Notes under the pieces: generated by a model
What the model was told of the DNA's origin: nothing
What the model saw: the letters and a program-made list of their open reading frames with translations, nothing else
The model's database searches: none
Shown here: one piece after another, positions 1 to 60,715 of the stretch
How positions within the stretch are numbered: the first letter of the stretch is position 1
How the letters are laid out: every line of letters starts with the position of its first letter
Source: Vicinamibacteria bacterium
GTDB lineage: Bacteria > Acidobacteriota > Vicinamibacteria > Fen-336
Length of the DNA: 64,000 bases
Assembly (NCBI GenBank): GCA_035570235.1
Contig: DATMML010000097.1
Span: 1 to 64,000, forward strand
Reading direction: 5' to 3'
Program-made: the position numbers and the translations under genes

Positions 1-787
1 CGGGCTTCACCGGTTCCGGGGAGGCCGTCTTCCGCGCCGAAGGCGTGGGCCTAGGGGTGGGAAGGGTGGGGGCGGTGGGGGTCTGCGCGGGCTGCGGGGT
101 GGGGGCGAGAGTCGCGGGGGGGGGCGATGCCGGCGACGCAACCGGCGTTCCCGGCGCCTGGGAGTGGATCCAGAACCAGGCGCCGACCCCGGCCCCCGCT
201 ATTAGCACGACGACCGCGGCCAAGAGAGGCACGTTGCTGCGGGAAGCCGGGCCGGTCGCCCTCCTCGGCTTGACGGTCGGCATTCGCGCGGCCTCGGTGG
301 CGCGGGGGGAGGGACGGGGTGCTTGGCGTCCAGCCGGGGTCCGCAGGCTCCCCACAACTTGCAGGAGATAGGACAGGTCCTTGGGCCGCCAGTCGGGGCC
401 CTTCTCCAGGCAGCCCATGATGGCGTCGGTCAGGTCCCGTGAGACGTCCGGGCGCAGGTCCGAGAGGGGCGTCGGCCTCTCCTCCGAGGGGCTCTTGCCG
501 GACAGCATCTCGTAAAGGATCACGCCCGCGGAGTAGATGTCGGCCTGCGGGGAATGACCGGCGCCCTCCGCGATTTCGGGGGCCCGGTAGCGCGGGGAAG
601 GGGTGCCGCCCATGGCTTCCGTCAGGACGCAGGTGCCGTCGGACTGGACCTCTATCTTGGAGGGCTCGAGGGAACGGTGCACGGTTCCCTTTTTGTGGGC
701 GTCGTTGAGGGCGCTACAGAGGCCCTCTATGACCTTGAGCTGCTCGGCGAGGGAATGGTCCTGCCTGAGCCAGGCATCGAGATTCAT
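1..787 (-). CDS. Truncated, catalytically degenerate Ser/Thr protein kinase-like membrane protein (partial, runs off the left edge)
   Basis: About 262 residues are visible, read leftward from ATG at 787; the 3' end lies outside the window. Residues 1-145 match the C-lobe of bacterial Ser/Thr kinases: a catalytic-loop position HRS (37-39) where HRD is expected, TEA (56-58) in the DFG position, an intact APE (69-71) and DIYSAG (83-88). A Pro/Arg-rich linker follows, then one membrane segment (about 186-207) and a Pro/Thr-rich, presumably periplasmic tail. The N-lobe (Gly-rich loop, ATP-binding Lys) is missing. An in-frame TAG at 848-850 and the next gene's end at 893 leave no room for it. With the catalytic Asp, the loop Lys/Asn and DFG all replaced, it should not phosphorylate; a scaffold or decaying paralogue is likely. 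It follows the hydroxylase gene on the same strand. Confidence 0.7.
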   Translation of the reverse strand, partial: MNLDAWLRQDHSLAEQLKVIEGLCSALNDAHKKGTVHRSLEPSKIEVQSDGTCVLTEAMGGTPSPRYRAPEIAEGAGHSPQADIYSAGVILYEMLSGKSPSEERPTPLSDLRPDVSRDLTDAIMGCLEKGPDWRPKDLSYLLQVVGSLRTPAGRQAPRPSPRATEAARMPTVKPRRATGPASRSNVPLLAAVVVLIAGAGVGAWFWIHSQAPGTPVASPASPPPATLAPTPQPAQTPTAPTLPTPRPTPSARKTASPEPVKP

Positions 788-30936: not shown

Positions 30937-30966
30937 TTGACACTCCGTTCAGGGGAACGCTATAGT
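30937..30966 (+). promoter_or_regulatory. Sigma70-type promoter of the nuo operon (TTGACA-18-TATAGT)
   Basis: TTGACA at 30937-30942, an 18-bp spacer, TATAGT at 30961-30966. It is among the best hexamer pairs in the window and drives toward nuoA (ATG 31050), with a leader of about 77 nt. Confidence 0.7.
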
Positions 30967-44907: not shown

Positions 44908-46479
44908 ATGGCACGAAAGAGAGCGCTCATCTCCGTCTTTCGCAAAGAAGGGATCGTCGATCTGGCCCGGGGCCTGGACTCCCGCGGCTACGAGATCGTG
45001 TCCAGCGGCGGCACCGCTTCTGAGCTGACGAAGGCGAAGGTGCCGGTGGTGCCGGTGTCCACCGCCACCGGCTTCCCCGAGATCCTGGACGGCCGGGTGA
45101 AGACGCTGCACCCCCTGATCCACGGCGGAATCCTCGCCCGGCGCGACCGCCCCGAGCACCAAAAGGCCCTGGCCGAGCACGGCATCCCGCCCGTGGACAT
45201 CGTGGTCGTGAACCTCTACCCCTTCGAGGACAAGGTGGCCAAGGGCGCTCCCTTCGAAGAGGCGGTCGAGAACATAGACGTGGGCGGGCCCACGATGCTG
45301 CGGGCGGCGGCCAAGAACTTCCAGCAGGTGGCGGTGGTCGTGGACCCCGCCGACTACCCCCTGCTCCTCGAGCAACTCGACCGGGCGGGGGGCATCGACG
45401 GCCCCACCCGGCTCTTCTTGGCCCAGAAGGCCTTCCGCCACACCGCCCGCTACGAGGCCGCGATTGCCGGCTACTTCGCCCAGGTCGAGGTCCGCGAGGG
45501 CGGCTATGCGGTGGCCGAATCTGAGGACGTGTTCCCCTACCGCCTCACCCTGAACTACGAGAAAGTCCAGGACCTGCGCTACGGCGAGAACCCCCACCAA
45601 CGGGCGGCCTTTTACAGCGACCTCGGCTCCACGCTTTACTCGGTGGCCGCGGCCCGCAAAATCCAGGGGAAGGAGCTCTCCTTCAACAACATCCTCGATC
45701 TGGACGCGGCCTGGCGTCTGGCCACGGAGCTGCGCGAGCCCGCGTGCGTGATCGTCAAGCACACCAACCCCTGCGGCACCGGTCTCGGCAACGATCCCCT
45801 CGAGGCCTACGAGCGGGCCTGGGCGGGGGATCCCGTCTCCGCCTTCGGGGGGATCCTGGCCTTCAACCGGCGGGTGGACGGGTCGACCGCCCGCAAGATC
45901 GCGGGGGTCTTCGTGGAGGCCGTGATCGCACCCGGCTTCGAATCGGAGGCCAAGAAGACGCTGGCCGCCAAGCCCAACCTGCGGGTCATGGACATGGACA
46001 CCACCGGCATCCATCGAGTCACCGGATTCGACCTGCGCCGGGTGATGGGCGGGCTCCTGGCCCAGGAATGGGACCTCCATCAGCTCGATAAGGACAAGTG
46101 CGAGATCATGACTCGGCGCAAGCCCAGTGCCGAGGAGTGGAAGGCGCTCCTCCTCGCCTGGACCGTGTGCAAGCACGTGAAGTCCAACTCCATCGTCTTC
46201 GCGAACGCCCAGCAGACGCTCGGGGTCGGGGCCGGCCAGATGAGCCGGGTGGACGCGGCCCGGTTCGCGGCCCTGAAGGCGGCGCTGCCCCTGGCCGGCT
46301 CCGCCGCCGCCTCCGACGCCTTCTTCCCCTTCCGCGACGGCCTCGACGAGGTCGCCAAGGCGGGGGCCACGGCCGTCATCCAGCCCGGAGGCTCGGTCAA
46401 GGACGAAGAGGTCATCGCCGCCGCGGACGAGCAGAACCTGACCATGGTCTTCACGGGGGTCCGCCACTTCCGCCACTGA
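44908..46479 (+). CDS. purH: Bifunctional AICAR formyltransferase/IMP cyclohydrolase
   Basis: A 523-aa enzyme for the last two steps of IMP synthesis. The N-terminal cyclohydrolase (MGS-like) domain has [40 protein letters not shown]. The C-terminal AICAR transformylase has [11 protein letters not shown] (catalytic Lys-His, about 283) and SVKDEEVI near the end. Length is normal. ATG 44908 has a good GAAGGAA Shine-Dalgarno. It is the last gene of the group starting at 43095; the three preceding unknown genes have no evident purine role. A 36-bp GC-rich spacer separates it from a convergent gene. Confidence 0.97.
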
Positions 46480-46515
46480 CCAAGCGCCGGGGCCCGGCGG
46501 CGGCGCGCCGGAGGG

Positions 46516-47649
46516 CTAGATGGTGGCGCGGAGGGCGAAGAGCCCGCCCTGGAGCAGGAAGCGCGGCCCCTCAAGCAGGAGCCTCCGCTTGAGCGCGAGG
46601 TAGCCGAGCTCACCCAGCACCAGCTCCGTCATGACCCTTTGGATAGCCCGGCTGCGGCCGGCGCAGGAGATCATGCGGCGCGCGAAGCCGGGGGCGTAGA
46701 AGCGGGCGCGGATCGCGGCCGCCTTCAAGAGCTCCCGCCCGAAAGCGGCGAGCACGCGCTCCGGGTAGCGCAGGGGGGAGCCGTCCATCCGCAGGGTCTC
46801 CGCGAGGGTCACGGCGGAGCGCAGCGCATTCGGGATGCCCTCGCCGGTTATGGGATCGGCCAGGGCCGCGGCGTCGCCCACCAGCGCCCAGCGGGGGCCC
46901 GCGATTTCCAGGATCGAAGCGGGATCGGTGGAGGGGGAGGGGATGGTGTGGGCGTAGCGGTCGCCCTCGTCCTCGACCAGGGCCGGGAATGCGCGGGCCA
47001 CCTCGGCCTCGAGCCGCGCCACCAGCTGCCGGGTGGGAAGGGCGGCCAGAGGCGCGCAGATGCCGACGCCGACGTGGTCGGGGCGGGGGAAGAGCCACAG
47101 GTAGCCGGACAGACCGGGTGTGAAGCGGACGAGCATGGGCGAGGTGCCGCGGGCGAACCAGCCCACGGCCATGCACAGGCGGGAGGGGGGGGTGGGGGAC
47201 AGGAACGTCCGCCGCACCAAGCTACCCGCTCCATCCGCCCCCACCACGCAGTCGAAGTGTTCGTCCCCGCCCGCCGTGCGGACGCGGCCCTGCGTGTCTA
47301 CCTCGACCACCCGCTGGGGGGCGTGGACCGCGCCCGCCTCCGTGGCCCGCCTCAGCAACCAGGCGTCCAGGTCGCGGCGGGCGGCCACGGCCAGGGGGCG
47401 GTCAAGCTGGAGGTCCACCCACTCGCCGTGACCGGACTCGAACCGACAGGCGTCGACCCAGCGGGCGGGCAGGGGGTCGGCGGCGGGTGCCGGAGGCAGC
47501 AGGGCCAGGGCCTTGCCCGTGACCCCGCCGCCGCAGGGTTTCTCGCGCGGATGGGAGGGGTCGAAGACGGTGACGGAGGCGCCGTCCCTGGCCAGGTGGT
47601 AGGAGAGCAGCGAGCCGGCGGGGCCGGCGCCGACGACCGCGACCCTCAA
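46516..47649 (-). CDS. Geranylgeranyl reductase family FAD-dependent oxidoreductase
   Basis: A 377-aa flavoprotein of the GGR family (also called NAD(P)/FAD-dependent oxidoreductase), which saturates isoprenoid chains in lipids, quinones or chlorophyll precursors. TTG 47649 overlaps the heptose kinase stop (TTGA) and begins right at the FAD motif [18 protein letters not shown]. Other family features: [14 protein letters not shown] (about 45), [14 protein letters not shown] (about 145) and [15 protein letters not shown] (about 275). It could act on menaquinone or polyprenyl carriers; the LPS-gene context hints at undecaprenyl-type lipids but this is inference. Confidence 0.82.
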
Positions 47650-48629
47650 GCGCCGTCCTCGACCGCGGCGAGCAGCTCGTCGGGGGTGGCCGCGGCCGTG
47701 CCCAGCTTGCCCACGACGACGCCGGCCGCGTAGTTGGCGAGGGCGGCGGCTTCGGGGAGGGTGGCCCCCGCGCACAGGGCCAGGCCCAGGGTGGCGATCA
47801 CGCTGTCCCCGGCCCCCGTCACGTCGAAGACGTCGCGGGCGGCGGTGGGAATGTGCAGGGGCCGCCGGCTGCGCTCGAAGAGGCTCATGCCGTGCTCCCC
47901 GCGGGTGATGAGGGCGGCCCGGCAGCCCAGCATGGCCACGATGCGCCTGCCGGCCGCGGCCAGGTCGGCCGCGTTCCGGATGCGGATGCCCGTGGCCTGC
48001 TCGGCCTCCGTCTGGTTGGGGGTGACGACGGCCGCGTGCCGGTACAGCGAGAAGTGCGGCACCTTGGGGTCCACGAGGAGGGGGATCCGGCGGCGGCGGG
48101 CCAAGGGAGAGATGGCCTTCATGAGCCGGGGGGTGACGACGCCCTTCTGGTAGTCGGAGAGGATGAGGGCTTGGCACGAGGGCAGGGCCCTCTGCACCCG
48201 CTTCAGGAGGGCCTGCTCCAGGGCCTCCGGGATGTCGTCGGCCAGCTCGCGGTCGGCCCGGACCACCTGCTGGTGGTGGGCGATGATCCGGGTCTTGACG
48301 GTGGTGGGCCGCCCGCTGTCGGCCACGGTCAGGCCGGCCTCGACCCCGGCCGCGGCCAAGGCCGCCTCGACCCTCTCCCCCGCTGCGTCCGCACCCACCA
48401 CCCCCACCAGCACCGCTTCCCCCCCCAGGGAGCGGATATTGCCGGCCACGTTCCCCGCACCCCCAAGGTGGAAGCTCTGGTCGGTGACTTCGACCACGGG
48501 CACGGGGGCTTCGGGGGAGATGCGCACCACCTTGCCCCAGATGAATTCGTCGAGCATGACGTCCCCGAGGACAAGGACCCGCCGGCCGCTCATGGCCTTG
48601 AGCAGGGCCCGGGCCCGGGCGGGCTTCAT
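47646..48629 (-). CDS. rfaE1: D-glycero-beta-D-manno-heptose-7-phosphate kinase (RfaE1/HldE N-domain type)
   Basis: A 327-aa PfkB/ribokinase-family sugar kinase phosphorylating heptose-7-phosphate at C1 for ADP-heptose and LPS inner core synthesis. Motifs: VLVLGDVMLDEFIWG (about 18), RISPEAPVPVV (heptose kinase signature), GGAGNVAGNI, and the catalytic DVTGAGDSVIA (about 268). Only the kinase domain is present; the cytidylyl/adenylyltransferase half (RfaE2) fused in E. coli HldE must be elsewhere. Start ATG 48629. It lies between the O-antigen ligase gene (upstream, 7-bp gap) and the GGR gene. Confidence 0.92.
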   Translation of the reverse strand: MKPARARALLKAMSGRRVLVLGDVMLDEFIWGKVVRISPEAPVPVVEVTDQSFHLGGAGNVAGNIRSLGGEAVLVGVVGADAAGERVEAALAAAGVEAGLTVADSGRPTTVKTRIIAHHQQVVRADRELADDIPEALEQALLKRVQRALPSCQALILSDYQKGVVTPRLMKAISPLARRRRIPLLVDPKVPHFSLYRHAAVVTPNQTEAEQATGIRIRNAADLAAAGRRIVAMLGCRAALITRGEHGMSLFERSRRPLHIPTAARDVFDVTGAGDSVIATLGLALCAGATLPEAAALANYAAGVVVGKLGTAAATPDELLAAVEDGA

Positions 48630-48636
48630 GCCTCCC

Positions 48637-49965
48637 TCAAACCGCGGCCACCGCCCGTTGCCGCCGCAAGGCGTAGGGGAAAGCAGAGAAGATCAGCGTG
48701 AACATGAGGACCTCAGAATCCCCGAAAGTGTACTCGAAGAGCCCGGAGATCATCACCGCGGTCAGGAGGGCGAGGGCGCCGGGGGCGACCCAGCCCCGCC
48801 CGTAGAGGCCGCGGCGGCACTCGCGCCAGGCGTCGCCCATGGCCGCGGCCACCAGCCACAGCCAGAAGACTAGGCAGGGAAGGCCCCGCTCGGCCGTGAT
48901 CTGCAGCGCGTTGTCGTGGAGGTGGGGGGCCAGGGGGTTGGGGGCTTCCGGCCAGCGGTAGCGGGGGTAGGTCTGGAGGATCATCCCCGGCCCCTGGCCG
49001 AACACGGGCTTGTCCAAGATCATGTCGATGCCGGCCTGCCACATGTAGTAGCGATCGACGCTGCTGGGGTCGCTGAGGGTCAAGCGGTCGATCACGGTGG
49101 CGGGGCGCAGCACGAGCACGGCGAGCAGGCCGGTGGGGAGCAACCAGAGGGCGCGGGGTGCGCGCAAGGCCGCCACCACGGCCAGGCCGGCGATGGCCCC
49201 GAGCCAAGCGTTGCGGGTCATGGAGATGATGAGCGACCAGGCGCAGATCGGCAGGGCCAGGGCGGCGAGGGTGGTGCCCGTGGAAGGCGAGGGCCAGGGC
49301 CCCCGGGCCAGGGCCGTCGCCGCCGCCGTTGCCGCCAGCCCGGCCACGAAGAGGCGCGTGGTCTCGACCGCGAAGATCCCCGCCGCGTCGGCCAGGGAGA
49401 CGACGAGGAGGGCGGCTCCCAAACCGGCCAAGAGCTTCACGTCCCCCCGGGAGGGACGGAACGGCTCCCGGCGGAAGGCGAGCCGCGCCGCGGCCACCAC
49501 CGCCACGCCCATGGAGAGGCCGGCCGCGGTCATGTAGTGGCCGATGAAGCCGTGGGGCCGCCGGTTCAGGGTGTCGAAGCCCAGGAAATGGAACTGCAGG
49601 ATGGTGCCCACGCCGAGCGCGATCCCGCCCAGAAGCGCGGCGTCCACGATCCGCTCGCGCTCCCGCTCCCCCCCCGCGGAGTCCAGGGCCAGGTAGACGA
49701 GGGCGAAGAGGAGCAGCTTCTTGGCGTTCTCGTGGGAGGCCAAGGGATCGGCGGAAAAGGAGGCGGCGAGCAGGGTCCACACGGAGAAGGCCAGAATGGG
49801 CCCATCGAGCGGTGTGCGGGGCAGCGGGGCGCGCCCGCTGAGGAGCCGGACCAGGAAGACGACGACGGCCAGGGCCAGCGCGAGCTGGGCAGCGAATATA
49901 GAGACCAGGCACGTGGCCGCGGTGATGGCCACCAGGCCGAGCTGCGCGCGTTCGAGGTTCACCAC
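48637..49965 (-). CDS. O-antigen ligase family membrane protein (Wzy/WaaL-like)
   Basis: A 442-aa protein with about ten to twelve hydrophobic helices. The periplasmic-loop signature of the Wzy_C/WaaL family is visible: FGQGPGMILQTYPRYRW followed by PHLHDNALQITAERG, and an Arg-rich NAWLGAIAG helix region. The family attaches O-antigen or other glycans to lipid A core, or polymerises them; some members act on other polymers. Start is GTG 49965 or the neighbouring GTG at 49962. In the same minus-strand run as the heptose kinase, consistent with LPS assembly. Confidence 0.85.
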   Translation of the reverse strand: MVNLERAQLGLVAITAATCLVSIFAAQLALALAVVVFLVRLLSGRAPLPRTPLDGPILAFSVWTLLAASFSADPLASHENAKKLLLFALVYLALDSAGGERERERIVDAALLGGIALGVGTILQFHFLGFDTLNRRPHGFIGHYMTAAGLSMGVAVVAAARLAFRREPFRPSRGDVKLLAGLGAALLVVSLADAAGIFAVETTRLFVAGLAATAAATALARGPWPSPSTGTTLAALALPICAWSLIISMTRNAWLGAIAGLAVVAALRAPRALWLLPTGLLAVLVLRPATVIDRLTLSDPSSVDRYYMWQAGIDMILDKPVFGQGPGMILQTYPRYRWPEAPNPLAPHLHDNALQITAERGLPCLVFWLWLVAAAMGDAWRECRRGLYGRGWVAPGALALLTAVMISGLFEYTFGDSEVLMFTLIFSAFPYALRRQRAVAAV

Positions 49966-49996
49966 CGGCCCTTCCCGCCTGCCTCCGGCCTTGGCC

Positions 49997-50167
49997 TCAG
50001 TCCTCGACCGTGGCCTCTTCCGGGAGCATGATCGGGATATCGTCGCGAACCGGGTAGACGCGCTTGCACTGCCCGCACCGCAGCCCCGCCCCCTCCTTCA
50101 CCACCTCCACCGGGGTCTTGCAGACGGGGCAGGCCAGGATCTCGAGCAGTTCCGGATGGATCGCCAT
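49997..50167 (-). CDS. Trm112 family zinc-ribbon protein
   Basis: A 56-aa protein. ATG 50167 gives a zinc ribbon: [13 protein letters not shown] (CxxC at 13-16) and [13 protein letters not shown] (CxxC at 32-35), ending [15 protein letters not shown]. These match bacterial Trm112/YcaR-type proteins, which act as small activators of methyltransferases or accompany LPS and cell-envelope genes (E. coli ycaR lies near lpxK/kdsB). It is the first gene of the run with waaL-like, heptose kinase and GGR genes, 32 bp upstream of the O-antigen ligase. Confidence 0.85.
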
Positions 50168-50222
50168 GGGCCGAGTCTAACGCAGGCTCCCGCCCGGCGG
50201 GTAGCCAACCCCAAAACCGTCT

Positions 50223-50252
50223 TTGACTCCCACGGGAAGGGCGTGTGAGAAT
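50223..50252 (+). promoter_or_regulatory. Candidate promoter TTGACT-18-GAGAAT with TG extension
   Basis: TTGACT at 50223-50228 and GAGAAT at 50247-50252, preceded by TGT (extended -10 type). It would start transcription about 20 nt before ATG 50278 of the TPR gene. Confidence 0.4.
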
Positions 50253-50277
50253 CGAGCTTGGGGGGTCCGAGCACTAA

Positions 50278-52254
50278 ATGATGAACCCGGCCTTGATCGT
50301 GTTGGCGGCCCAGATCGCGTCGCCACCCCCGGCCAGGGCTTCCCTGGAAGCCCGCCGGGCCGAGGCCTACTATCACTTCAGCCTGGGGCTCCAGGCCCGG
50401 CTGACCGGCGATACGGAGACCTCGCTCGAGGAGTACCGGAGGGCGCAGAAGCTCGACGGGGGCTCGTCCGCGATCCGAGTGGAGACGGCGCGTCTGCTCC
50501 GCGAGTCGGGCCGCCTGGACGAGGCCCTGGCCGAGGCCAAGGAGGCGGTGCGCCTGGAGGAGGACAACGCCGACGCCCACCTGATCCTGGGCCAGCTCTA
50601 CCAGCTGCGCACCGAGGGTGCGGGCGCAGAGCAGGCCCTGCGGCGCGCGGCCGCGGAGTACGAGGTGGTCGTGCGCCTCCAGCCCACGGACGGCAACACC
50701 ATTCATGCCCTGGCCAACGTGTACGGCCAGCTTCAGGAGCACAAGGACGCGGCCCGGGTATGGCAGCTCTTCTTGGCCCTCGACGCCAGCAGCTTCGACC
50801 CCCAGATCCGCTTCGACGCCCAAGTCCAGTTCGGCACCCAGCTCTTGGCGGCCGGAGACAGCGAGGCGGCGGCGGCTGCCCTCAAGAAGGCCGTCGAGAT
50901 GCAGCCCTCCGTGCGGGCATACCAGGCCCTGGGCGAGATCTACGCGCACGCCCAGCAAACTGACCAGGCCATCCTCCACTATCGCAAGGCTCTCGAGATC
51001 GAGCCCGGCAACCTGCGGGTGCACCTGGGCCTGGGTGACATCCTGCAGCGGGCCCGGCGGTACCCGGAGGCCCTGGCCGAGGCGGAGGCGGTTCTTCTCG
51101 CCGATCCCAAGAACCGTTACGCCCTCGACCTGAAGGGCCGCATCCTCCGCGACCTGAAAGAATTCGACAAAGCGGACGAGGCGGCGGAAGAGGTACTGGT
51201 CCAGGATGCGAGCGACCTCAAGGCGGCCTACCTCAAGGTCACGATCGCGGAGGCTCGGCGAGACTTCCCCGCCGCCGCCACCCAGCTCGAGGCGATCCTG
51301 GCCCGGAGCCGGAGCGGGGAGGACCCTCAGGAGAGCGCGAGCAACGACCGGGTCTTCTTGATCCACCTCGGCTTCGCCTACCAGCAGCAGAACCGGCACG
51401 CGGACGCGGCCGCGGCCTTCGGACGGGCCAAGCGGGTCGGAGGAGATCCCGACGCGACCCTCCTCGGCTACCACGCGGAGGCCCTCCTCCTGGCCAAGGA
51501 CCTGGAACGGGCCCTGACCGAGACCCGGGCCGCCCGCGCGCGCTTCCCCGACGATCCCGATCTCGCGAGCCTGGAAGCCACGGTCCTGCGCGAGAAGGGG
51601 GATCTCAAGGGGGCCCTCACCGTGGTGGAGGCGCTGCGCCAGAAGTCGCCCGAGGACCCCAAGGTGCTGCTGCAGGTGGCGGACTTCTACCGGAAGGCGC
51701 GCAAGTTCTCGGAGGCGGAGGCCGCCCTCCGGAAGGCGCATGAGCTCGAGCCCAAGAGCCTGCCCGTGCTCTTCCAGCTCGGGGCCGTGCTCGAGCGGCA
51801 GAAGCGCCTCGACGAGGCGGAGCGTTTCTTCCGCGAGGCCCTGAAGCTGGAGCCCGACTCCGCGGCCATCCTCAACTACCTGGGCTACATGAACGCGGAC
51901 CGCAACGTGCGGGTGGAGGAGGCGATGGGCCTGCTCGAGAAGGCCCTGGCCCTCGACCCCGGCAGCGGAGCCTACCTCGACAGCCTGGGTTGGGCCCAGT
52001 ACCGCCTGAACCGCCTGGAGCTGGCGGAGGAGAACGTGCGCAAGGCCCTTGAGCAGCAAGGGAGCAGTGCGGTCATCCTCGACCACCTGGGCGACATCCT
52101 CGGGCGTCGCGGCCACGTGGCCGAGGCCATGACCCTCTGGCAAAAGGCCCTCCAGGGTGAGGACGAGGAGGGAGAGCTCGATCGGGCCGGCGTCGAGCGC
52201 AAGATCCGTGAGGCCCAGACCCTCCTGCACGCCCACGACCAGAAGAGTCCGTAG
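50278..52254 (+). CDS. Large tetratricopeptide-repeat protein
   Basis: A 658-aa protein made almost entirely of TPR motifs, about 34 residues each, with at least a dozen recognisable (for example YHFSLGLQARLTGDTETSLEEYRRA, DEALAEAKEAVRLEEDNADAH, AILHYRKALEIEPGN, AERFFREALKLEPDSA). A short hydrophobic N-terminus (about 4-12) is too weak for a confident signal peptide. TPR arrays mediate protein-protein contacts, here possibly in envelope biogenesis. It is followed by a lipoprotein and ispE on the same strand; the next start overlaps its 3' end. An ATG pair at 50278/50281 begins the frame. Confidence 0.85.
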   Translation: MMNPALIVLAAQIASPPPARASLEARRAEAYYHFSLGLQARLTGDTETSLEEYRRAQKLDGGSSAIRVETARLLRESGRLDEALAEAKEAVRLEEDNADAHLILGQLYQLRTEGAGAEQALRRAAAEYEVVVRLQPTDGNTIHALANVYGQLQEHKDAARVWQLFLALDASSFDPQIRFDAQVQFGTQLLAAGDSEAAAAALKKAVEMQPSVRAYQALGEIYAHAQQTDQAILHYRKALEIEPGNLRVHLGLGDILQRARRYPEALAEAEAVLLADPKNRYALDLKGRILRDLKEFDKADEAAEEVLVQDASDLKAAYLKVTIAEARRDFPAAATQLEAILARSRSGEDPQESASNDRVFLIHLGFAYQQQNRHADAAAAFGRAKRVGGDPDATLLGYHAEALLLAKDLERALTETRAARARFPDDPDLASLEATVLREKGDLKGALTVVEALRQKSPEDPKVLLQVADFYRKARKFSEAEAALRKAHELEPKSLPVLFQLGAVLERQKRLDEAERFFREALKLEPDSAAILNYLGYMNADRNVRVEEAMGLLEKALALDPGSGAYLDSLGWAQYRLNRLELAEENVRKALEQQGSSAVILDHLGDILGRRGHVAEAMTLWQKALQGEDEEGELDRAGVERKIREAQTLLHAHDQKSP

Positions 52255-52834
52255 CCCCGTCGCCCTGGCCCTCTTGGCCGGGGGCTGTGCCACCGCCGCC
52301 CTGCCGCCGCCCGCGGTCAGAGAGAAGGCGCGGGCCACTCCCACTTACAGCGGCCGCTTGCGGATCTCCTTGCAGGGCCCCGCCCTCCGCGCCCGCACGC
52401 GCGCGCTCGTGGCCTTCCGGCGGCCGGACGCCCTCCGCATCGAGATCCCGGGGCCGACGGGGGCGCGCCTGGTGGCGGTGGCGAGGGAGGGTGCCTTGGC
52501 CGCGGTGTTTCCCGGGGACCGAGCGGTGTTCCTGGGCGCGGCCACTCCCGCGGAGTTCGAGGCCCTGCTCGGCGTGGGCCTGGCCCCGGAGGAGGTGATC
52601 GACCTCCTGGTGGGAGTGGGCTCGCCGCGCCTGCGTGCCTACCGGGTGCGCTGGGGCCCCGTCTTGCCCGCCCAGATCGAGGCCACCCTGCCCGACGGCA
52701 GCCGGCTAGAGGCCAAGGTCGAGGACGCCGAAACCGGCGTCGAGCTGCCCCCGGCCGCCTTCGCGGAGCCCCCCCACGCGGGCTACCGCCGGGTGAGCGC
52801 GGAGGAGGCCCGGCGGTTGTGGGGGGGCCGTTGA
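52208..52834 (+). CDS. Predicted outer-membrane lipoprotein (LolB/DUF4292-like)
   Basis: A 208-aa protein starting at GTG 52208 inside the end of the TPR gene (an upstream GTG at 52157 is possible). A basic N-terminus and hydrophobic PVALALLAGGC end in a lipobox-like Cys at about residue 27. The rest is beta-rich with alternating strands (YSGRLRISLQGPALRARTRALVAFRRPDALRIEIPG), resembling LolB or the DUF4292 lipoproteins that share the LolA/LolB fold. This suggests lipid or lipoprotein binding between membranes; not proven. Its stop overlaps ispE (TTGA). LolB near ispE and prs is a known conserved neighbourhood, which supports the call. Confidence 0.7.
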   Translation: MRPRPSCTPTTRRVRSPVALALLAGGCATAALPPPAVREKARATPTYSGRLRISLQGPALRARTRALVAFRRPDALRIEIPGPTGARLVAVAREGALAAVFPGDRAVFLGAATPAEFEALLGVGLAPEEVIDLLVGVGSPRLRAYRVRWGPVLPAQIEATLPDGSRLEAKVEDAETGVELPPAAFAEPPHAGYRRVSAEEARRLWGGR

Positions 52835-53739
52835 GGGCGCTCCGCGTGCCGTCGTTCGCGAAGCTGAACCTCGGCCTGGAGGTGCTCGGCTCTCGCGCGG
52901 ACGGCTACCACGAGCTCAGGACGCTGTTCCAGACCATCGACCTCCATGACGACATCGTGCTGCGGCCGCTCCCGCGCGAGATCCGGGTCCGCTGCGACCA
53001 CCCGCAGGTGCCCGCGGACGAGAGCAACCTGGCGGTGCGGGCCGCCCTCGAGCTGCGGCGCCACGCGCGGCTCGGCCACGGGGTCGAGATCGTGATCACC
53101 AAGCGGATCCCGGTGGCGGGTGGCCTCGGGGGTGGCAGCAGCAACGCCGCCGCCGTGCTCATGGGCCTGGATCGGCTCTGGAAGCTGGGCCTGGGGCCGG
53201 CCGGACTCCACCCCCTGGCCCGCCGCCTGGGGGCGGACGTGCCCTTCTTCCTCCTGGGGGGCACGGCGCTCGGGCTGGCCCGGGGAGACGAGGTCTACCC
53301 CCTCAAGCGACAGGTGCAGGCCCACGTGGTGGTCGTGGACCCCGGGGTGCCGGTCTCGACGGCCGCGGTGTTCCGGCGTTTGGACGCAAGTTTGACACCC
53401 CGCGAAAACAGTACTACGATTTTTCGCTTTGTATCGAGCGACTTGGAGGGGGATGGGGGATGGAGGCTCCTCTCCAACGACCTCGAGGAGGCGGCCCTGG
53501 AGGAAGCCCCCGTCCTGGTGCAGCAGGGGAGGCGGATCCGGGGCGTGCTGGTCCAGAACGGCGCCCTTTGGGCGGCCCTCTCCGGGAGCGGGTCGTCCTT
53601 CTTTGGTCTCTTCGACGACGCCCGCCGGGCCCGCCAGGCCCAGGCGGCGCTAGCCAAGGAAGGCTTCACCGTCTCTCGCGCGCGGACGCTGTCTCTGGAC
53701 CAGTATCGAAGACGTTGGTCGCGGGTACGATGTCGTTAG
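52831..53739 (+). CDS. ispE: 4-diphosphocytidyl-2-C-methyl-D-erythritol kinase
   Basis: A 302-aa GHMP kinase of the MEP isoprenoid pathway that phosphorylates CDP-ME. TTG 52831 overlaps the previous stop as TTGA and yields the conserved N-terminus PSFAKLNLGLEVLG with the Lys-Asn pair. The Gly-rich ATP loop is PVAGGLGGGSSNAAAVL (about 93-109). Motif 3 is LSGSGSSFFGLF. Around codons 188-205 codon use turns unusually AT-rich; that stretch holds a TTGACA-17-TACGAT promoter-like element. Gene order ispE - tRNA-Gln - prs is widely conserved; spoVG is inserted here. Confidence 0.93.
   Translation: MRALRVPSFAKLNLGLEVLGSRADGYHELRTLFQTIDLHDDIVLRPLPREIRVRCDHPQVPADESNLAVRAALELRRHARLGHGVEIVITKRIPVAGGLGGGSSNAAAVLMGLDRLWKLGLGPAGLHPLARRLGADVPFFLLGGTALGLARGDEVYPLKRQVQAHVVVVDPGVPVSTAAVFRRLDASLTPRENSTTIFRFVSSDLEGDGGWRLLSNDLEEAALEEAPVLVQQGRRIRGVLVQNGALWAALSGSGSSFFGLFDDARRARQAQAALAKEGFTVSRARTLSLDQYRRRWSRVRCR
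53392..53420 (+). promoter_or_regulatory. Promoter-like element inside ispE (TTGACA-17-TACGAT)
   Basis: TTGACA at 53392-53397, 17 bp, TACGAT at 53415-53420. Perfect -35 and strong -10 with ideal spacing, in a local AT-rich patch of the coding sequence. It points to spoVG, about 350 bp downstream. Confidence 0.6.
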
Positions 53740-53772
53740 GGGGTTCTGGAGGGGCGGAGAGGAGCGGACATC

Positions 53773-54114
53773 ATGGAGATCACGGACGTCAAGGTCATCC
53801 CCGTGGATGATGAGAAGCTCAAGGCTTTCGTATCGATTGTCTTCGACGCGTGCTTCGTCGTCACCGATATCAAGATCATCCATGGTCCTAAGGGCCTGTT
53901 CGTGTCCATGCCGAGCAAGAAGCGGAAGGACGGCACGTTCAAGGACATCGCCCATCCGCTGAACAACCAGATGCGGCAGTACCTCGAGGAGAAGGTCCTC
54001 TCGGTCTACAAGCAGCAGGTGGCCGCGGCCCCCGCCGCGCCCGGGGGGTCTCCGGGCGGCGAGACCCCTCCCGGCTCCGACCAGACTTCGACGCGGGACG
54101 CCTCTCAAGCGTAG
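53773..54114 (+). CDS. spoVG: SpoVG family RNA/DNA-binding regulator
   Basis: A 113-aa protein. The conserved SpoVG core is clear: MEITDVKVIPVDDEKLKAF, then FVVTDIKIIHGPKGLFVSMPSKK (about 29-51) and FKDIAHPLNNQMRQYLEEKVL. SpoVG proteins bind nucleic acid and regulate gene expression in many non-sporulating bacteria too; here the sporulation name is historical. The C-terminal tail (Ala/Pro/Ser-rich) is not conserved. GGAGAGGAG precedes the ATG. It lies between ispE and tRNA-Gln. Confidence 0.95.
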   Translation: MEITDVKVIPVDDEKLKAFVSIVFDACFVVTDIKIIHGPKGLFVSMPSKKRKDGTFKDIAHPLNNQMRQYLEEKVLSVYKQQVAAAPAAPGGSPGGETPPGSDQTSTRDASQA

Positions 54115-54128
54115 AGCAGTACCCCTAC

Positions 54129-54203
54129 TGGGGCGTGGCCAAGTGGTAAGGCGCGGGGCTTTGGACCCCGTATTCGAAGGTTCGAATCCTTCCGCCCCAG
54201 CCA
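54129..54203 (+). tRNA. tRNA-Gln (anticodon UUG)
   Basis: 75 nt with an encoded CCA. Acceptor TGGGGCG pairs with CGCCCCA, discriminator G. The anticodon stem CGGGG/CCCCG encloses CTTTGGA (anticodon TTG, reading CAA, and CAG by wobble). T-arm GAAGGTTCGAATCCTTC. It sits between spoVG and prs, in the same orientation and at the position where many bacteria carry tRNA-Gln next to ispE and prs. Confidence 0.96.
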
Positions 54204-54279
54204 ACCCGGGCCCGCGGCGAGGAGCAGCATGCCCAGGGCCGAGGGGCACGGGTAGCGCATGAACGATCGAGCGGATGGC

Positions 54280-55221
54280 ATGAGCCAAGAGCTGAAGGTA
54301 TTCACGGGAAGCGCTCACCCCCGGCTGGGCGAGGGCATCGCCCGCTCGCTGGGGATCCCTCTGGGCCGCGCCCACCTTTCACGATTCAGCGACGGCGAGG
54401 TCTGGTTCCAGATCCAGGACAACGTGCGGGGGGCGGACGTCTTCGTGGTTCAACCCACCGCCCCCCCCGTGAACGAGAACCTGATGGAGCTTTTGGTCAT
54501 GCTCGATGCCTTCAAACGCTCGAGCGCCTCCCGCTTGACGGCGGTGATCCCCTACTACGGCTACGCTCGCCAGGACCGCAAGGACAAGCCCCGGGTGCCC
54601 ATCTCCGCCAAGCTCGTGGCGGACCTGATCTCCACCGCCGGCACCGACCGCATCCTGACCATGGACCTGCACGCTTCCCAGATCCAGGGCTTCTTCGACG
54701 TGCCCGTGGATCACCTCTTCGCCGCCCCCGTGATCATGGACTACGTTTCCCGGCTCAAGCTGCCCCGGCTGACCGTGGTCTCGCCCGACGCGGGAGGAGT
54801 GGAGCGGGCCCGGGCCTACGCCAAGAGGCTGGAGGCCGCCCTGGCCATCGTTGACAAGCGGCGCGAGACTCCCAACGTGGCCGAGATCCACCACGTGATC
54901 GGGGACGTGGAGGGACGCACGGCCCTCATCGTGGACGACATCGTGGATACGGCGGGGACTCTGGCCAAGGTGGCGGAGGCCATCAAGGAAGCGGGGGCGA
55001 GCGAGGTGCTCGCGTCCTCCTCCCACGCGGTCCTCTCCGGCAACGCCATGGAGAAGATCGAGCGGAGCCCCCTCTCCAAGCTCATCGTTACCGACTCCAT
55101 CCCCGTCTCCCTGGAGAAGCGCCGTTCGGAGAAGATCGTGGTCCTCTCCGTGGCCGAGCTGCTGGGGAAGGCCATCAAGAACATCCACGAGGAGACCTCG
55201 GTCACGAGCCTATTCGTCTAG
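54280..55221 (+). CDS. prs: Ribose-phosphate pyrophosphokinase
   Basis: A 313-aa enzyme making PRPP from ribose-5-phosphate and ATP, for nucleotide, His and Trp synthesis. ATG 54280 gives MSQELKVFTGSAHPRLG, aligning with the family N-terminus; ATG 54259 would add seven residues. Motifs: RFSDGEVWFQI, the flexible-loop YGYARQDRK (about 98-106), TMDLHASQIQGFF (metal His), and the PRPP-binding VDDIVDTAGTL (about 217). Class I, length normal. Followed 30 bp later by rplY. Confidence 0.97.
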   Translation: MSQELKVFTGSAHPRLGEGIARSLGIPLGRAHLSRFSDGEVWFQIQDNVRGADVFVVQPTAPPVNENLMELLVMLDAFKRSSASRLTAVIPYYGYARQDRKDKPRVPISAKLVADLISTAGTDRILTMDLHASQIQGFFDVPVDHLFAAPVIMDYVSRLKLPRLTVVSPDAGGVERARAYAKRLEAALAIVDKRRETPNVAEIHHVIGDVEGRTALIVDDIVDTAGTLAKVAEAIKEAGASEVLASSSHAVLSGNAMEKIERSPLSKLIVTDSIPVSLEKRRSEKIVVLSVAELLGKAIKNIHEETSVTSLFV

Positions 55222-55251
55222 CCCTCATATCTGCCAAGGAGTTCGAAAGCC

Positions 55252-55998
55252 ATGCCTGAGATTGTGGTCGCGGCCGAGAGCCGCACCGATACCGGAAAGA
55301 ACGCCAACCGGCGCCTGCGCACCCGGGGCCTCATGCCCGGCGTGCTCTACGCGCCGAGCAAGAAGGCGGTGCCCGTGGCCGTCTCCCCCAAGGAGATCGG
55401 GTCCATCCTGCGCAGCGCCAAGGGCGAGAACACCCTCTTCGAGCTGGACCTGGAGGGCAAGCGCCGCAAGGTCATCCTCAAGGAGTTCCAGCGCGAGCCC
55501 GTTAAGGGCCGCCTCCTGCACGCCGACTTCTACGAAGTGGCCCTGGACCAGGTCCTGGCGGTCAAGGTCCACGTGGAGCTCCAGGGCGTGCCGGTGGGGG
55601 TCAAGGCCCAGGGCGGAATCGTGGATTTCGTGACCCGCGAGCTGGAGATCGAGTGCCTGCCCGCGGACATCCCGGAGAAGATCGAGGTGGATGTGTCCCA
55701 CCTCGAGCTGGGCAAGCACGTGCGGGTCTCGGAGCTCAAGCTCTCCGACAAGATCAAGGTCCGGACCGATCCCGAGCTCGTGATCGCGCACGTGGTGGCG
55801 CCGCGGGCGGAGGAGGCTCCGACGGCGGTGGCGGAGGCAGCGGTGGCGGAGGCGGAGGCCGCGACCGCGGAGCCGGAGGTCATCAAGAAGGGCAAGCCGG
55901 CGGCGGAGGGCGAGGTCACGGAGGAGAAGCCGGACAAGGGCGAGAAGAAGGAGAGGCCGGACAAGAAGGAAAAGGCCGAGAAGAAGGAGAAGAAGTAG
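55252..55998 (+). CDS. rplY: 50S ribosomal protein L25, long Ctc-type
   Basis: A 248-aa 5S rRNA-binding protein. Residues 1-95 are the L25 domain (SRTDTGKNANRRLRTRGLMPGVLY, then LKEFQREPVKGRLLHADFYEV). Residues about 96-190 are the TL5/Ctc beta domain (VKVHVELQGVPVGVK, IECLPADIPEKIEVDVSHLELG). The last ~60 residues are a low-complexity Ala/Glu then Lys/Glu tail, probably disordered, longer than in most homologues. An AAGGAG Shine-Dalgarno precedes ATG 55252. The pth frame begins immediately after its stop. Confidence 0.96.
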   Translation: MPEIVVAAESRTDTGKNANRRLRTRGLMPGVLYAPSKKAVPVAVSPKEIGSILRSAKGENTLFELDLEGKRRKVILKEFQREPVKGRLLHADFYEVALDQVLAVKVHVELQGVPVGVKAQGGIVDFVTRELEIECLPADIPEKIEVDVSHLELGKHVRVSELKLSDKIKVRTDPELVIAHVVAPRAEEAPTAVAEAAVAEAEAATAEPEVIKKGKPAAEGEVTEEKPDKGEKKERPDKKEKAEKKEKK

Positions 55999-55999
55999 A

Positions 56000-56572
56000 C
56001 TGCGGCTGGTCGTCGGTCTCGGCAATCCCGGAGAGCGCTACCGGCGCACGCGGCACAACGTGGGCTTCATGGCCGTGGACGCCCTCGCCGCCCGCGGCCG
56101 CGGGCCCCGCGGCCGCGAGGAGCAGGGGGCGTGGGTGGTGGAGGCCGAGCTGGGAGACGAGGGGGTGTTGCTCGTCAAGCCCCTCTCCTTCATGAACCGG
56201 AGCGGGGAACCGGTGAACGCCCTCCTCGCCTCCCGGGACGCTGGCCCCCAGGACCTGGTGGTGGTCGTGGACGACGCCGCCCTGGACCTAGGGGTGCTCC
56301 GCGTTCGGGAGCGGGGGAGCCACGGTGGCCACAACGGCCTCCGCTCCCTCATCGACGTTCTGGGGACCGACGAGTTCGCCCGGGTGCGGGTGGGGATCAA
56401 GAAGGGCGAGTTGCCGCCGGACCTGGCCGATTATGTGCTGTCGGACTTCCCCCCGGACGACGTGCTGGTCGTGCAGGAGGCGGTCGGCTGGGCCGCGGAC
56501 GCGGCGGAATGCGTGATCCGGGAGGGCGTGGTGGCGGCCATGAACCGCTTCAACGGCCCCCGCAAGGCGTGA
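56000..56572 (+). CDS. pth: Peptidyl-tRNA hydrolase, apparently with a CTG start
   Basis: A 190-aa enzyme that releases peptides from prematurely dissociated peptidyl-tRNA. The catalytic N-terminus is present in frame, LVVGLGNPGERYRRTRHNVGF (Asn and His), but it is preceded by no ATG, GTG or TTG; the only plausible start before it is CTG 56000, one base after the rplY stop. ATG 56060 would delete the active-site Asn and His. Other motifs: KPLSFMNRSGEPV, VVVDDAALDLG and the SHGGHNGLRSL segment. Coupling with rplY may compensate for weak initiation. Confidence 0.85.
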   Translation: MRLVVGLGNPGERYRRTRHNVGFMAVDALAARGRGPRGREEQGAWVVEAELGDEGVLLVKPLSFMNRSGEPVNALLASRDAGPQDLVVVVDDAALDLGVLRVRERGSHGGHNGLRSLIDVLGTDEFARVRVGIKKGELPPDLADYVLSDFPPDDVLVVQEAVGWAADAAECVIREGVVAAMNRFNGPRKA

Positions 56573-56576
56573 GGGC

Positions 56577-56605
56577 AAGACAAGAAGCCCGGGAAGCCTT
56601 ACAAT
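56577..56605 (+). promoter_or_regulatory. Candidate promoter of the rpsF operon (AAGACA-17-TACAAT)
   Basis: AAGACA at 56577-56582 and TACAAT at 56600-56605 with a 17-bp spacer, just after the pth stop. It gives a leader of about 110 nt before the rpsF GTG. Confidence 0.5.
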
Positions 56606-56628
56606 GGCGGAGACGTAGAGCGAACCAC

Positions 56629-56646
56629 GCGCGGCAGAAGCCGCGC
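56629..56646 (+). promoter_or_regulatory. Perfect hairpin in the rpsF leader
   Basis: GCGCGGC (56629-56635), AGAA loop, GCCGCGC (56640-56646). It lies in the predicted 5' leader of rpsF-rpsR. Ribosomal S6:S18 autoregulatory RNAs occur in this position in other bacteria, but I cannot match the published consensus by eye. Confidence 0.4.
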
Positions 56647-56722
56647 ACTCCTTGCTCCCGGTAGGGCTCGTCGAGCTCGAAAGGGGCTGTGCGGACGATC
56701 CAAAAGGAGGATCAAGAATACC

Positions 56723-57130
56723 GTGAGCGACCGTGTTTACGAGATCCTGTTCATTGCCGACCCCAACCTCGGAGAGCCGGAGGTGGATACCCTGACCGCC
56801 CTCATCCAGGGCTACATCGAGAAGGAGGGGGGGCGCATCCAGAAGGTCGAGAAGTGGGGGAAGAAGCGCCTGGCCTACGTCATCGGCCGGCACCGCGAGG
56901 GCTCCTACGTGCTCATCGTGACGGAGGGCCAGGCGAGCCTGATCAAGGAAGTCGAGCGACGCATCCGAGTGACGGACGGTGTGGTCAAGTTCATGACCGT
57001 GCGCGTCGACGAGGAGCTGCGCAAGGCGGAGCGACGCCGGGCCCGACGGGCAGCGGGAGACGAGAAGAGGAGGGGGCGGACCACGGAACGCCCAGCGGCG
57101 GCCCCCGTGGAGGGTGAGGTGCCACTGTGA
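56723..57130 (+). CDS. rpsF: 30S ribosomal protein S6
   Basis: A 135-aa small-subunit protein that pairs with S18. GTG 56723 follows AAAGGAGG. Core fold: [51 protein letters not shown]. The C-terminal ~35 residues are Arg/Ala/Pro-rich and extend beyond the E. coli core. Stop overlaps rpsR (GTGA). Confidence 0.96.
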
Positions 57131-57453
57131 GCTTCTCGGGAGGCGGATTTCGGGGCGGGGGCGGCCGCGGGGGGGCGAAGCCCGCGGGGGACAGGGGCGG
57201 TCGCGGGGGCGCGGCCGCCAAGGACGCGGGCAAGCGGTACTTCTTTCGTCGCCGCAAGGTCTGCAAGTTCTGCGCGGACAAGATCGACTACGTGGACTAC
57301 AAGGACGTCAAGCTGCTGTCGTCCTTCGTCCCCGAAAGGGGGAAGATCCTACCCCGCCGGATGTTCGGGACCTGCGCGGAGCACCAGCGGAAGCTCACCC
57401 TCGCCATCAAGCGGGCCCGCAACATCGCCCTCTTGCCCTTCGCCGCGGAGTAG
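57127..57453 (+). CDS. rpsR: 30S ribosomal protein S18 with a Gly/Arg-rich N-terminal extension
   Basis: A 108-aa protein. The conserved S18 core begins at about residue 37: [13 protein letters not shown] (zinc-type CxxC), IDYKD-like [12 protein letters not shown], and the C-terminal [29 protein letters not shown]. The first ~35 residues are Gly-, Arg- and Ala-rich with several RGG-like triplets ([10 protein letters not shown]), an extension absent from E. coli S18. GTG 57127 overlaps the rpsF stop. The zinc ligands make this a C+ paralogue. Confidence 0.95.
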
Positions 57454-57474
57454 GCGGGGGTGGTCGAGGCGCAG

Positions 57475-58422
57475 ATGAGCGAGCCGGAACGCCTGTCGGC
57501 GCTGGCGGAGAGGGGCGACCCGCGGCCGGTCGGCCTCTGGGCGGCGGGCGTCTCCGCCGCCCTGCTCTACTCGGTGTCCCTGTTCTCGCCTTACCTCTCT
57601 CCCCTCGCCTTCGTTTCCGCCTTCCCCCTCATCGTGCAGCGCCTGCGCGGGGGACTGGGCGGCGCCCTGCTCGCCACCCTGGGCGCGGCCTCGGTCGTGG
57701 CCTTCGTCTTCTCTCCCAGCCAGGCCGGGGTCTTCTGCTGTTTTCTGGCCGCTCCCGGCCTGCTCATGGGCGAGGCCATGGCCCGGGGCCGCGGAATGGT
57801 GCGGGGCTGCGGCTGGGCCTTCGCCCTCCTGAGCCTGGAGATCTCGGCCGTCCTCATCTTCGCGAGCGGATGGATGGAGGCGCACGCCTTGGAGCCGCTG
57901 GAGCAGCTGCGCTCGACCGCCTTCGTTAAGGACTTGACCCCGGAGAGGCTGGCGGAGTGGACGGAACAGGTGACGACCCTGCACGACGCGATGGCCGTCG
58001 TCTATCCCGCCTTCTACATCATCCTGGGGGCCTTCGTGGTCTTGGCCAACGCGGCCCTCCTTCGCTTCTACTTGGCCCGACGCGACCCCGGCTGGCTGGA
58101 TGGGGACGAGTTCGAGGGGATCCGGTGGCCGCTGGGCCTGGCCGTGGCCTTCGTGGTCTCCGGGGCCTCGGTGGCGCTTCCCCTCCTGCGTCCGGCGGCC
58201 TACAACGTGCTGCTCGTCCTGGCCTTCTTCTTCGCCCTCGAGGGCCTGGCCGTGGTGGCCTTCTATTCGCGTCGGCTCGCGGGTCCGCCCCTCCTGCGGG
58301 TGGCGGTGGTGATCCTCGTGCTCGCGAACCCCTGGGCCTCCCAGATCCTGGCCCTGTTGGGTCTCTTCGACATCTGGATCGATTTTCGCAAGTGGGCGGA
58401 GCCCCCCGCCACCGGGGCCTGA
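57475..58422 (+). CDS. DUF2232 multi-pass membrane protein
   Basis: A 315-aa membrane protein from ATG 57475 (an upstream GTG at 57460 would add five residues). About eight hydrophobic segments, with the central PAFYIILGAFVVLANAALLRFYLARR and the C-terminal LALLGLFDIWIDFRKW, typical of DUF2232 (B. subtilis YybS). Between rpsR and rplI this gene is found in many Gram-positive and delta-like genomes. Function unknown. Confidence 0.8.
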   Translation: MSEPERLSALAERGDPRPVGLWAAGVSAALLYSVSLFSPYLSPLAFVSAFPLIVQRLRGGLGGALLATLGAASVVAFVFSPSQAGVFCCFLAAPGLLMGEAMARGRGMVRGCGWAFALLSLEISAVLIFASGWMEAHALEPLEQLRSTAFVKDLTPERLAEWTEQVTTLHDAMAVVYPAFYIILGAFVVLANAALLRFYLARRDPGWLDGDEFEGIRWPLGLAVAFVVSGASVALPLLRPAAYNVLLVLAFFFALEGLAVVAFYSRRLAGPPLLRVAVVILVLANPWASQILALLGLFDIWIDFRKWAEPPATGA

Positions 58423-58463
58423 TCGACGGTCCGGGTGGAGGGCATTCCTTCGAGGGAGAAGCC

Positions 58464-58910
58464 ATGGAAGTGATCCTGAGGCAAGACGTGGAGAAGCTGG
58501 GCCAGCGGGGGCAGGTGGTGAAGGTTGCGGAGGGGTACGGCCGGAACTTCCTTCTGCCCCGCGGCCTGGCCATGGCCGTGACGGAAGCCAACCAGGCCAT
58601 GATCGCCAAGGAGCGCAAGGCCCACGAGGCCCGCCAGGCCAAGGAGAAGGCGCAGTGCGAGTCCGTGGCCGCCCGCATCGGTTCCTTGCGCTTCATCGCC
58701 CCCCGCAAGGTGGGCGAGAATGACGCGCTCTACGGCTCCGTGACCTCGGGCGACATCGGCGAGTTCCTGAAGGCCAAAGGCATCGAGATCGACAAGCGAA
58801 AGGTGCTGCTCGACGAGCCCATCAAGGTCCTGGGCGAGCACGACGTGCGCATCAAGCTCCATCCCGAGGTGATTGCGGGCTTGAAGGTCCTGGTGACGAA
58901 GGAAGGATAG
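58464..58910 (+). CDS. rplI: 50S ribosomal protein L9
   Basis: A 148-aa protein with the two-lobed L9 fold. N-terminal rRNA-binding domain MEVILRQDVEKLGQRGQVV...GYGRNFLLPRGLA (PROSITE-type signature), a long connecting helix (ANQAMIAKERKAHEARQAKE), and a C-terminal domain with ALYGSVTSGDI and IKVLGEHDVRIKLHPEV. ATG 58464 with GAGGGAG upstream. The dnaB TTG lies 14 bp beyond the stop. Confidence 0.97.
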   Translation: MEVILRQDVEKLGQRGQVVKVAEGYGRNFLLPRGLAMAVTEANQAMIAKERKAHEARQAKEKAQCESVAARIGSLRFIAPRKVGENDALYGSVTSGDIGEFLKAKGIEIDKRKVLLDEPIKVLGEHDVRIKLHPEVIAGLKVLVTKEG

Positions 58911-58924
58911 CCGGGCAGAAGGAC

Positions 58925-60715
<1,791 letters not shown>

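Follow-up and report, generated by a model that had tools for sequence, protein, structure and literature searches.

A putative sigma-70 promoter embedded in ispE ahead of spoVG, tRNA-Gln and prs, with the same codons kept across bacterial phyla

Introduction

Bacterial promoters are generally regarded as fast to turn over. Sigma-70 promoters placed towards the 3' end of one gene in an operon uncouple the genes that follow it, and such intragenic promoters are not known to be shared beyond single species or genera. In Escherichia coli, the P2 promoter of prs lies inside ispE and gives a leader of approximately 300 nt. In Bacillus subtilis, spoVG is transcribed from a sigma-H promoter situated between genes. 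No report of a conserved promoter inside ispE or of the gene cluster considered here was found in the open-licence PMC literature. The 'internal promoter' described for ispE in Mycobacterium (PMC6009663) is located upstream of ispE.

We analysed a 64-kb stretch of DNA (the window), in which ispE contains a sigma-70 type promoter sequence. Similar to E. coli P2, this element is a candidate promoter for prs that is contained in the coding sequence of ispE. E. coli K-12 (L204) has the gene order lolB-ispE-prs, with neither spoVG nor tRNA-Gln between ispE and prs, and its ispE carries TTGATG-18-TAGAAT, the -10 of which ends 308 nt before the prs start and thus fits a leader of that length. However, 188 nt separate the E. 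coli site from the ispE stop, whereas this distance is 279-459 nt (median 321) for the sites described here, so that the positions are not homologous, and E. coli IspE reads Pro-Glu-Leu-Pro in that stretch, where the present sites encode Leu-Thr. E. coli thus represents the same solution at a different site. The B. subtilis promoter likewise drives spoVG in the neighbourhood of ispE and prs, but it is intergenic and of the sigma-H type, while the present element is of the sigma-70 type and lies inside ispE. As in intragenic sigma-70 promoters generally, the element is placed inside an upstream coding sequence with co-oriented genes downstream; different from them, its location, reading frame and spacer length are retained across many phyla.

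Materials and Methods

A search for SpoVG in 100 relative genomes yielded 14 with SpoVG, the genome of the window included. This set comprises 11 members of the window's family together with one other family of its class, and one locus (L191) belongs to a different class within the phylum; L006, with a partial ispE, belongs to this comparison and stands outside the 364-gene set described below.

For the wider survey, 368 ispE loci, 364 of them unique in ispE, were gathered from 80 named contigs, the relatives, the window's own phylum, Pseudomonadota, Nitrospirae and Omnitrophota. The last three are the phyla of the named carriers L092 (Polynucleobacter), L034 and L044, respectively, and the sample of at most 30 loci from each search, together with 140 selected stretches, represents part of all matches. 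Loci were grouped by what follows ispE: spoVG (A), tRNA-Gln (B), prs only (C), none of these (D) or too little DNA (E; eight loci, excluded from contrasts). In-frame sites were counted up to a limit of 470 nt, widened from 430 nt to take in L115 and L119, whose ispE ORFs end later; counts made at the narrower limit are marked. The test on the first -10 base was conditional on TTGAC alone, and the TTGAC of the full site was used where a gene had one. Independent-pairs tests were run on a FastTree tree of 358 related rows.

Results and Discussion

The element in the window consists of TTGACA, a 17-nt spacer and TACGAT (Table 1). Its hexamers match the sigma-70 type consensus at 10 of 12 positions, the spacer falls within the 16-18 nt range, and TTGACA is read in frame as Leu-Thr codons. 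According to Pfam, the gene order is TPR protein, an ORF without a Pfam match, ispE, spoVG, prs, L25 (rplY), pth, S6 and S18; ispE, spoVG, tRNA-Gln, prs, rplY and pth all lie on the + strand, and the element is directed at the downstream genes. The ORF at 52157-52834, between the TPR gene and ispE, had earlier been called a lipoprotein. Having the position of lolB in the E. coli lolB-ispE-prs order, it might, as a guess by analogy, encode a LolB-like outer-membrane lipoprotein.

Table 1. Features of the candidate promoter and the genes around it (window coordinates)
Feature	Position	Strand	Basis
-35 element TTGACA	53392..53397	+	sequence; TTG in 14/14 related loci
-10 element TACGAT	53415..53420	+	sequence; TANNNT-type -10 in 14/14 related loci
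predicted transcription start	53426..53428	+	predicted from spacing rule, 6-8 nt past -10
family-specific kept stretch TTT GTA TCG AGN GAN TTG G	53428..53446	+	11 family members
ispE, host of the candidate promoter	52819..53739	+	Pfam GHMP kinase N + C; solved IspE relatives
spoVG, first downstream gene	53773..54114	+	Pfam SpoVG 1.3e-32
tRNA-Gln(UUG), second downstream gene, between spoVG and prs	54129..54203	+	ARAGORN; Rfam tRNA
prs, ribose-phosphate pyrophosphokinase	54259..55221	+	Pfam
rplY/ctc-type ribosomal protein L25	55252..55998	+	Pfam
pth, peptidyl-tRNA hydrolase	56060..56572	+	Pfam

Positions 46000-60000 hold three promoter-like sites on both strands, the ispE element being the only one at 10/12; the shuffle mean is 0.4. 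Across the 64 kb, TTGACN-16..18-TANNNT was seen five times against 0.31 expected, and TTGACA-17-TANNAT occurs 16 times in the whole 5.7-Mb own genome versus 0 for the reversed pattern. Flanks were inspected for 14 of these 16 sites (L018 and L024 left out), and two of the 14 have a tRNA-Leu or a tRNA-Val gene directly downstream, within ~25 nt, which indicates that the genome employs such a promoter type.

Among close relatives, ispE and spoVG are syntenic in all 14 SpoVG-bearing genomes, and the tRNA-Gln gene is at the same place in 13/13 of the relatives' spoVG loci scanned. Each of the 14 ispE-spoVG loci contains a TTGAC[AT]-17-TA-type promoter sequence at the identical ispE codons, 357-406 nt upstream of the spoVG start, while the aligned IspE rows share 39-75% identity with that of the window; an element at the same codons in 14 of 14 loci is not due to chance. 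All 11 family members use TTG for the Leu of the -35, compared with 5.2% of the 420 Leu codons elsewhere in these genes, and the -35 Thr codon is ACA in eight and ACT in three, ACA making up 2.6% of the 115 Thr codons elsewhere. The letters, spacing and coordinates of TTGACA-17-TACGAT are as the sequence-only reading had given them, and the AT-rich codon patch that it pointed out is the third-position GC minimum of ispE in the 11 family members (0.39 in the 9-codon window 53407-53433 versus 0.84 gene-wide). Its view that the coding sequence has been shaped to keep a promoter agrees with the invariant TTG in the family, with this drop in GC and with the excess over codon shuffles reported below. 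It had also stated that its reading would fall if the hexamers were conserved no further than the codons demand; the comparison was made, and the conservation exceeds that level.

The survey extended this pattern to distantly related groups. Among the 364 unique ispE genes, the in-frame site is present in 71/80 loci of group A, 83/203 of B, 8/21 of C, 0/52 of D and 2/8 of E, that is, in 162/304 loci with the downstream unit (A-C) versus 0/52 without it. Codon shuffles within each gene (430-nt limit) predict 6.0, 8.3, 0.8, 0.2 and 0.1 sites for A to E, compared with 69, 83, 8, 0 and 2 observed. Nine of the 80 spoVG loci do not have the site. Several loci scored as site-less (L060, L097 and L103) do contain TTGACA at the column, followed by a poorer -10, and the counts are therefore conservative. 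At the 430-nt limit, the site was found in 13/13 A, 7/8 B and 0/6 C loci of the Nitrospirae sample, in 21/24 A and 5/5 B loci of Omnitrophota, in 14/17 A, 31/39 B, 3/4 C and 0/5 D loci of the window's own phylum, and in 21/50 B, 1/5 C and 0/13 D loci of Pseudomonadota; the relatives set gave 12/14 A (14/14 with L115 and L119), 0/70 B and 0/4 D. Carriers among the named loci (32/80) belong to Nitrospirae, Nitrospinae, Omnitrophota, KSB1, FCPU426, Zixibacteria, Acidobacteria (Terriglobia, Bryobacteraceae, Pyrinomonadaceae and Saccharicenans), Geobacteraceae, Desulfuromonas, Desulfobacterales, Syntrophaceae (Deltaproteobacteria are named too) and Polynucleobacter.

Judged from the sequence comparisons, the element is very probably an old housekeeping promoter of the sigma-70 type, lying within ispE, from which (spoVG)-tRNA-Gln-prs and further genes are transcribed. 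RNA polymerase would initiate near 53427, and the last third of ispE would serve as an untranslated leader. The predicted transcript would run from its start within ispE through spoVG, tRNA-Gln(UUG) and prs, and probably through rplY-pth beyond. Its role would be to uncouple the expression of an essential tRNA and of PRPP synthesis from isoprenoid synthesis, as well as from whatever drives the upstream TPR-lipoprotein-ispE genes.

A narrower possibility, and the one that the sequence-only reading had put forward, is that the promoter is for spoVG alone and that tRNA-Gln and prs are transcribed from other promoters. In the window's own taxonomic class, the site is indeed present in 13/13 spoVG loci versus 0/70 spoVG-less loci with tRNA-Gln next, which indicates that tRNA-Gln and prs do not require the site. 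Outside this class, however, it is kept without spoVG, in group B loci with tRNA-Gln and prs from the own phylum (30/38), from Pseudomonadota (20/32) and among the named loci (18/28), and 60/62 site-bearing A loci have no TTG-type site of at least 9/12 in the 110 nt before tRNA-Gln. We thus regard a promoter serving spoVG alone as rather unlikely. The earlier assignment is supported with regard to a promoter inside ispE and to its direction towards spoVG; it was too narrow in its target, which would also take in tRNA-Gln-prs-rplY-pth. Because the site is retained in lineages without spoVG, its conserved target is, from sequence, most likely the unit of tRNA-Gln and prs, preceded by spoVG in the loci that have it. 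The median distance from the predicted start to the next gene is 320 nt for spoVG (71 loci), 308 nt for tRNA-Gln (83) and 354 nt for prs (8).

How far the presence of the site follows gene context was also considered. Among B loci, a promoter-like site (8/12) within 110 nt of tRNA-Gln occurs in 33/120 site-less versus 7/83 site-bearing loci (p 0.0006), while at 9/12 the corresponding numbers are 13/120 and 4/83 and the difference is not significant (p 0.20). The commoner tRNA-Gln-proximal promoter-like sites of site-less loci fit a relocation of the promoter, but the comparison is confounded by phylogeny. The independent-pairs test for gene context was underpowered, with seven supported pairs in which the site changed the same way in a mean of 1.3 and the opposite way in 0.0 (median p 1), so that the 0/52 of group D may partly reflect phylogeny; for spoVG, eight supported pairs gave 2.6 versus 0.4 (median p 0.5). 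The correlation of site and context is therefore not established apart from phylogeny, on which the conservation of position and spacing does not depend.

The spacing and codon comparisons bear on whether the promoter-like sequence is a by-product of the protein, IspE requiring Leu-Thr at this place and codon bias turning it into TTGACA. Leu-Thr is frequent at the column (67 A, 89 B and 12 C loci) and its in-frame position is fixed. Against this, group D IspE proteins with Leu-Thr there are rare, with two loci, both using CTC codons; the Leu codon of the column's Leu-Thr is TTG in 164/168 A-C loci compared with a background of 14%; and codon shuffles yield approximately a tenth of the sites. 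The -10 is also found at exactly 17 nt: TANNNT follows in-frame TTGAC at this distance in 158/198 cases (A-C), the next best distance (20 nt) giving 10 and all others at most 9. Given TTGAC, the base that opens the -10 falls on a synonymous third codon position; it is T in 84% of the 111 genes above 55% GC (background 15%) and in 93% of the remaining 83 (background 31%). The Leu codon of the site falls on a single alignment column in 150/162 cases. The combination of TTGAC with TANNNT at +17 in Leu-Thr pairs occurs in 1/432 cases elsewhere in the same genes and in 160/289 near the site. By the codon, spacing and shuffle tests, the hexamers are under constraint beyond the codons, as in a sigma-70 type promoter, and it is very improbable that protein constraint accounts for them.

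Directly after the predicted start, synonymous sites of the family-specific stretch (TTTGTATCGAGNGANTTGG in the window) are kept as well, GTA and TCG in 11/11 and TTG in 10/11 family members, while outside this stretch the same genes write 3% of their Val residues as GTA. It may act as an initially transcribed sequence, as an operator or as a leader structure; the own genome has a single copy of TTTGTATCGAG, which indicates no shared operator there. There is very little likelihood that the whole element is instead a site for another DNA-binding protein or a leader RNA element resembling a promoter by chance: family conservation does continue past the -10 through GTATCGAGNGA, but what is kept across phyla is the pair of hexamers 17 nt apart, as in sigma-70 promoters, the leader has no Rfam match at the gathering score, and its hairpin does not exceed shuffles in most loci. 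That hairpin, pairing TCGAG with CTCGA of the NDLE codons (RNAalifold), was not supported, its duplex being no better than shuffles for most of the 14 loci. At the gathering score, Rfam gave tRNA only and no leader RNA family in 50000-58000. A further candidate, the 7-mer GTATCGA repeated at three places near spoVG, was dropped: the leader copy alone is kept (11/11 family loci), unlike the other two, one near the end of ispE and one within spoVG.

As to the origin of the promoter, its age is suggested by its position on one and the same in-frame Leu-Thr pair throughout many phyla, where both codons and amino acids of IspE would be constrained. We slightly favour a single ancestral promoter, fixed in the ispE frame before many phyla split, whose requirements dictate Leu-Thr and the following residues and which was lost repeatedly. 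Losses would have occurred where the promoter shifted beside tRNA-Gln or the gene cluster broke up. The FastTree tree requires at least 40 changes of the site, which indicates that gain and loss were frequent or that the tree is poor.

If the promoter is indeed ancestral, it would rank among the oldest bacterial promoters that can be traced. Position, frame and spacing kept across phyla inside a coding sequence would mean that regulatory DNA can match a gene in stability and that regulation dictates part of a protein sequence. The comparisons suggest that one stretch of DNA has long been both code and control signal in distantly related groups, and they carry the warning that conserved IspE residues at the site need not reflect enzyme function. 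In many uncultured lineages, the element would also offer a concrete, testable point of control that ties an essential tRNA to PRPP synthesis.

Other promoter-like sequences were identified on the + strand of the window. TTGACT-18-GAGAAT at 50223-50252 (9/12), with TG preceding the -10, is upstream of the TPR gene, and AAGACA-17-TACAAT at 56577-56605 (9/12) is between pth and the S6 gene; these two could mark the limits of the units transcribed on both sides. A further sequence, TTGACA-18-TATAGT at 30937-30966, is likewise a strong sigma-70 word.
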